A stretch of DNA of 22,053 nucleotides from Peribolospora baueri (Eukaryota > Basidiomycota > Peribolosporomycetes > Peribolosporales > Peribolosporaceae), in the NCBI GenBank assembly GCA_029717555.1, contig JAMDHS010000153.1, positions 1-22,053 on the forward strand, given 5' to 3'. The position numbers and the translations under genes are program-made. Numbering within the stretch: the stretch's first letter is position 1; each line of letters starts with the position of its first letter. The notes under the pieces are model-generated. The model was not told where the DNA came from, searched no databases, and saw nothing but the letters and a program-made list of their open reading frames with translations. This document shows, piece after piece, positions 18,609 through 21,046 of this stretch.

Positions 18609-21046
<2,438 letters not shown>

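Follow-up and report, generated by a model that had tools for sequence, protein, structure and literature searches.

Several kinds of very short exon are described in the portions of the fungal literature consulted here. The CYP621A genes of Fusarium contain a 1-nt exon that is reported for 20 orthologs (24 genes in the text of the paper) together with 18 RNA reads (PMC12940212). The bglA genes of basidiomycete yeasts contain microexons shorter than 30 bp, the shortest of 5 and 6 bp, which were identified by comparison with cDNA (PMC9142197). In the P450 genes of Phanerochaete, microexons of 2-10 codons are found and the shortest exon is 6 bp (PMC1184071). The Xlr2 gene of Trichoderma contains a switch-like, glucose-responsive microexon of 20 nt that encodes two zinc-cluster cysteines, and this exon was missed by automatic annotation (PMC11121469). 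Fungal microexons down to a single nucleotide have therefore already been published, and the case presented here is of a known kind. A literature search that paired the hyphenated spelling "micro-exon" with DAHP synthase found no paper.

The window, which is the whole 22,053-nt stretch of DNA that was analyzed, contains a gene for DAHP synthase, which catalyzes the first step of aromatic amino acid synthesis, with a predicted exon of 8 nt. The genome is rich in introns and, judged by its gene structure and composition, is probably fungal. As in the CYP621A genes, an ultra-short exon with a length that is not a multiple of three lies in a conserved motif, keeps the reading frame and is supported by an intronless relative; the Fusarium exon, in contrast, is 1 nt long and is documented by many orthologs and RNA reads, whereas the exon in the window is 8 nt long, comes from one genome, is based on sequence and belongs to another enzyme (PMC12940212). 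The bglA genes resemble the window gene in being intron-rich, in encoding a metabolic enzyme and in having exons as short as 5-6 bp. They differ in that another gene is concerned, and the portion of that report examined here describes no paralog lacking the extra intron (PMC9142197). The Phanerochaete genes likewise show that very short exons are common in an intron-rich basidiomycete, but these belong to another gene family and are presented as gene features across a genome set (PMC1184071). The Xlr2 microexon shares with exon 6 of the window gene the encoding of essential residues, and its inclusion responds to glucose (PMC11121469). As in that case, automatic annotation may overlook the predicted window exon.

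Gene Model and Splice-Model Tests

The coordinates of the gene are presented in Table 1.

Table 1. Predicted features of the DAHP synthase gene in the window
Feature	Position	Strand	Length	Remarks
DAHP synthase gene	18609-21046	minus		10 exons, 9 introns; 470-aa product, open frame, GT-AG introns
Exon 1	20970..21046	minus	77 nt	second in-frame ATG at codon 12 is an alternative possible start
Exon 2	20610..20876	minus	267 nt	
Exon 3	20478..20530	minus	53 nt	
Exon 4	20223..20347	minus	125 nt	
Exon 5	19992..20026	minus	35 nt	ends ATC GG
Intron 5	19880..19991	minus	112 nt	GTGAGG...CAACAG; CTAAC branch-like site 41 nt from 3' end; absent from paralog C92
Exon 6 (microexon)	19872..19879	minus	8 nt	TGCCAGGA; last base of Gly186, Ala187, Arg188, first base of Thr189
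Intron 6	19768..19871	minus	104 nt	GTGAGT...GCTCAG; position and phase identical in paralog C92
Exon 7	19681..19767	minus	87 nt	starts CC GCT
Exon 8	19486..19574	minus	89 nt	
Exon 9	19179..19364	minus	186 nt	
Exon 10	18609..19094	minus	486 nt	includes stop codon; last ~92 codons outside the AroG-aligned part

The sequence-only reading had proposed an 8-nt exon at 19872-19879 with the acceptor CAACAG, the donor GTGAGTG and flanking introns of 112 and 104 nt. All of these were reproduced, and the gene was placed on the minus strand. Joining exons 5, 6 and 7 gives ATC GGT GCC AGG ACC, which encodes I-G-A-R-T. The proposed sequence GAIGART, with Arg188 opposite Arg165 of AroG, was likewise obtained by translation and alignment. 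A microexon was taken to be an exon of ≤30 nt that has an AG acceptor, a GT donor and flanking introns of normal length, that is needed to restore a conserved protein and that is present in the mature mRNA; exon 6 has each of the sequence properties and is predicted to occur in the mRNA. Skipping of the exon had been said to shift the frame into a stop, and the conceptual product indeed reads GAIGR and then ends at codon 188. If intron 5 or intron 6 were retained, the stop would fall at codon 187 or 239, respectively. In an annotation that lacked these 8 nt, the enzyme would be cut short or scrambled at a conserved motif, and the resulting coding sequence would probably specify a dead protein.

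The joining of exons 5 and 7 was examined using 341 GT-AG splice models, of which 51 have one intron and 290 have two. The edges were allowed to lie ≤12 nt from exons 5 and 7, introns were ≥30 nt and the inner exon was ≤60 nt. None of the 51 one-intron models bridges the two exons in frame and without a stop, and 15 of the 290 two-intron models do so. SWGAIGARTxESQ is encoded by exactly one of the 341 models, that with the predicted 8-nt exon, which is thus unique for the GART motif but not for an open frame as such. Allowing GC donors provided no additional model that yields GART. The model with the predicted exon also has the top score of all 341 when compared with either the paralog (182) or AroG (170). 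Against the paralog, the next three scores of 170, 166 and 161 belong to GAIGSESAESQ, which is made with the 8-nt exon GAGTGAGT; to GAIGARSESAESQ, in which a 14-nt exon keeps the arginine and adds two residues; and to GAIGTAESQ, which is made with a 2-nt exon, respectively. Each of these three runner-up models relies on the splice sites of the predicted exon or on an AG or GT close by.

The 224-nt stretch between exons 5 and 7 was shuffled with its dinucleotides preserved and the six outermost bases on either side left unchanged, and an AG followed by 8 nt encoding (G)AR(T) and a GT appeared in 34 of 200,000 shuffles, a control that addresses the 8-nt design only. Across both strands of the window, this motif is found a single time. 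A search of viral_contigs for relatives of the gene in other species returned 8 stretches that matched a pattern, none of them a relative, and a search of genome_contigs returned 28 stretches, among which only 2 bacterial loci were relatives. Judged from the splice models and the comparison with homologs, the 8-nt microexon is almost certainly real.

Intron 4 is the longest of the gene at 196 nt and contains three tandem 25-bp units at 20080-20154 that are 94% matching. Much of its extra length is due to these tandem copies.

Enzyme Identity and Paralogs

The window protein was identified using profile and structure-database comparisons. Residues 12-382 match TIGR00034 (aroFGH) over the entire profile (1-342 of 342), scoring 482.4 bits where the cutoff is 173.2, and this full-profile score places the protein among the class I DAHP synthases. 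The cutoff of PRK12755 is also passed (476.2 vs 343); the scores for the narrower AroG and AroH models lie below their cutoffs (472.5 vs 568 and 439.8 vs 463, respectively). Among PDB sequences, AroG (1gg1) is matched with an E value of 1.4e-123 and the tyrosine-inhibited enzyme 1og0, which we take to be yeast Aro4, with an E value of 2.1e-115. From these matches, the window gene is predicted to encode a class I (AroFGH-type) DAHP synthase. The similarity to the class I enzymes 1gg1 and 1og0 extends over the full length and includes the GART motif, whereas the window protein has a C-terminal tail of ~92 residues and its coding sequence is interrupted by nine introns. This tail (18612-18887) lies past the AroG-aligned part; the tail of paralog C92 is shorter, and an FND-P-LG motif is found in both.

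Arg188 aligns with position 165 of the AroG chain and is presumably a PEP ligand. The GART motif is present in all seven distinct homologs that were inspected (AroG, 9j7h, 1og0, L013, L014, C92 and C178), the PDB part of this count being three kinds among five alignments inspected, from 21 PDB sequences matched.

A protein search of the same genome (22.1 Mb, 178 contigs) returned 16 matches in three places. There are at least three DAHP synthase loci, namely the window gene, C92:267112-268922 and C178:227495-228686; this count is a lower bound because only the best candidates were scored. The C92 and C178 products are 68% (272/401) and 51% (177/347) identical to the window protein, respectively. 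The C92 gene has eight modeled introns, of which seven match, in both position and phase, window-gene introns 2, 3, 4, 6, 7, 8 and 9, in a comparison that starts at intron 2 (the first exon of C92 is outside its model). The eighth (positions 2210-2297 of L009, a stretch of C92) follows AALAY in phase 1 and is absent from the window gene, so that over the part compared one intron is private to each copy. Intron 5 is missing from C92, where GAR is encoded as GGCGCTCGAA inside one ordinary exon that is followed by GTGAGT exactly at the position of intron 6. In C178, the GART region (GGCGCCAGAACG) is uninterrupted, and none of the four modeled introns is at an intron position of the window gene. 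The 8 nt of the window gene differ from the corresponding bases of C92 at four positions and encode identical amino acids; 27 of the 5670 possible four-base changes of the 8 nt keep GART. The predicted protein segment is confirmed by these two relatives from the same genome, neither of which has the microexon, and the putative downstream edge of the microexon is the intron position shared with C92.

The microexon results from the presence of an additional intron, intron 5, 8 nt upstream of the shared intron 6. Gain of intron 5 by the window gene after the duplication seems a simpler reading than its loss from C92. The two paralogs differ here by one intron that is 8 nt from a shared one, and they would provide a clean example, within one genome, of how a microexon originates.

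An introner-like intron is a repetitive intron with a sequence that is repeated elsewhere in the genome. Such an origin was considered for introns 5 and 6 and rejected, since each of them matches only itself in the 22.1 Mb at E values up to 1, in a search that skipped very common words and that does not prove rarity. No match beyond self was obtained at E 0.05 when copying from the window, L009 or L010 was considered. Introns 5 and 6 share only words of 7-8 nt with one another.

Splicing of the Microexon and Alternative Readings

The splice sites were scored using leave-one-out matrices, for which the window gene and C92 together supplied 17 introns, a small sample. The donors of introns 6 and 5 rank 3rd and 9th of 17, and the acceptors rank 10th and 12th, respectively. 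The lengths of introns 5 and 6 (112 and 104 nt) rank 13th and 10th within the range of 68-196 nt for the same set. A CTAAC branch-like sequence lies in intron 5 and only weaker YTNAY matches lie in intron 6; no match was seen over the searched range of introns 7 and 9. The splice sites of introns 5 and 6 are ordinary and not outliers; this is neither the mark of a fragile exon nor proof of constant inclusion.

Where introns are short, exon definition is unnecessary, and intron definition is used in S. pombe and other fungi. Introns 5 and 6 are short, each has its own donor, its own acceptor and at least a weak branch-like site, and they could be removed independently of one another. Whichever intron is removed first, the 8 nt would become part of a joined exon of 43 or 95 nt. 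The shortness of the microexon need not hinder splicing, since it would lie within one of these longer exons after the first removal. The difficulty of defining so short an exon, raised in the sequence-only reading, need not arise if intron definition applies at such intron lengths. In this class I DAHP synthase gene, the 8 nt are very probably a true coding microexon, and it is most likely used constitutively by way of ordinary intron definition. The gene model, its homology and the structure of the paralog are shown by the sequences, whereas we infer the actual splicing of the window gene, the order in which its introns are removed, the constitutive use of the exon, the gain of intron 5 rather than its loss and the activity of the enzyme.

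The splicing of this exon had also been proposed as an on/off control on entry to the shikimate pathway. This proposal finds no support: there are at least two further DAHP synthase loci, and the flanking introns and splice sites are unremarkable. If the other loci are expressed, loss of this transcript alone need not close the pathway. In a regulatory reading of the microexon itself, inclusion would be under control, with aromatic amino acids as one candidate signal, and the skipped, stop-bearing transcripts would enter nonsense-mediated decay, which would set the level of the enzyme. Skipping does place a stop codon in exon 7, where three introns still follow, and the glucose-dependent 20-nt exon of Trichoderma Xlr2 is a precedent (PMC11121469). 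However, the additional loci and the absence of outliers among the splice sites of introns 5 and 6 argue against regulation, and skipping would remove 224 nt, which is more than any of the 17 introns (68-196 nt) of the two related genes. A kinase-like gene nearby has introns of ~440 and ~490 nt, as estimated by eye, so removal of 224 nt would be within reach of the spliceosome of this genome. Regulated inclusion is considered very unlikely.

Three readings would change or remove the 8 nt as a coding exon. Use of an inner AG (TGCCAG) in place of the CAACAG located 6 nt upstream would give an in-frame product without Ala187-Arg188, and use of a GT located 6 nt downstream would give a 14-nt exon. 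Both of the models concerned, GAIGTAESQ and GAIGARSESAESQ, are open and in frame and rank fourth and third of 341 against the paralog, respectively, but such coincidences arise easily. The GAIGTAESQ form requires a 2-nt exon, and the 14-nt exon has the donor GTGACT rather than GTGAGT and disrupts the conserved motif. The enzyme without Ala187-Arg188, a form that the sequence-only reading does not mention, would presumably be inactive and could enter the oligomer. Alternative sites of this kind are extremely unlikely. A similarly minute chance is given to a decaying or nonfunctional copy in which the fit of the 8 nt is coincidental: the close paralog C92 is present, as such a reading would have it, but the frame is open across 10 exons with GT-AG introns, the family match is full length and the 8 nt cause no amino acid change relative to C92. 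A stwintron is a nested intron, and the two adjoining introns with almost nothing between them could be taken for one, with the entire 224 nt removed as a single nested intron and the 8 nt noncoding. The exact correspondence of the 8 nt to the conserved residues makes this scarcely credible. Removal of all 224 nt leads to the stop at codon 188, and a stwintron is thereby refuted at the sequence level unless the gene is nonfunctional.

A composite of these readings can also be formulated, in which the microexon would act as a metabolic valve that tunes one of three DAHP synthases. Inclusion would compete with skipping, which leads to a stop and decay, and with the in-frame 6-nt shift of the acceptor, the product of which lacks Ala-Arg and may poison the oligomer. 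The arrangement would have arisen after gene duplication, with the arrival of an intron 8 nt away from one already present. This composite is very unlikely, and constitutive inclusion by ordinary intron definition is preferred.

Neighboring Genes

Three other coding regions were noted in the window. A CDK7/Kin28-type kinase-like gene is located at 14900-17385 on the minus strand; it was named by eye from its translation, and its 3' end is not fixed. Sirtuin-like pieces, for example CHGSFATATCTNPKCGH, appear at 11373-13749 on the plus strand and were also named by eye. An open frame of 1180 aa at 4059-7598 on the minus strand contains acidic runs and is rich in Pro, Ala and Gln, and its product is perhaps largely disordered.
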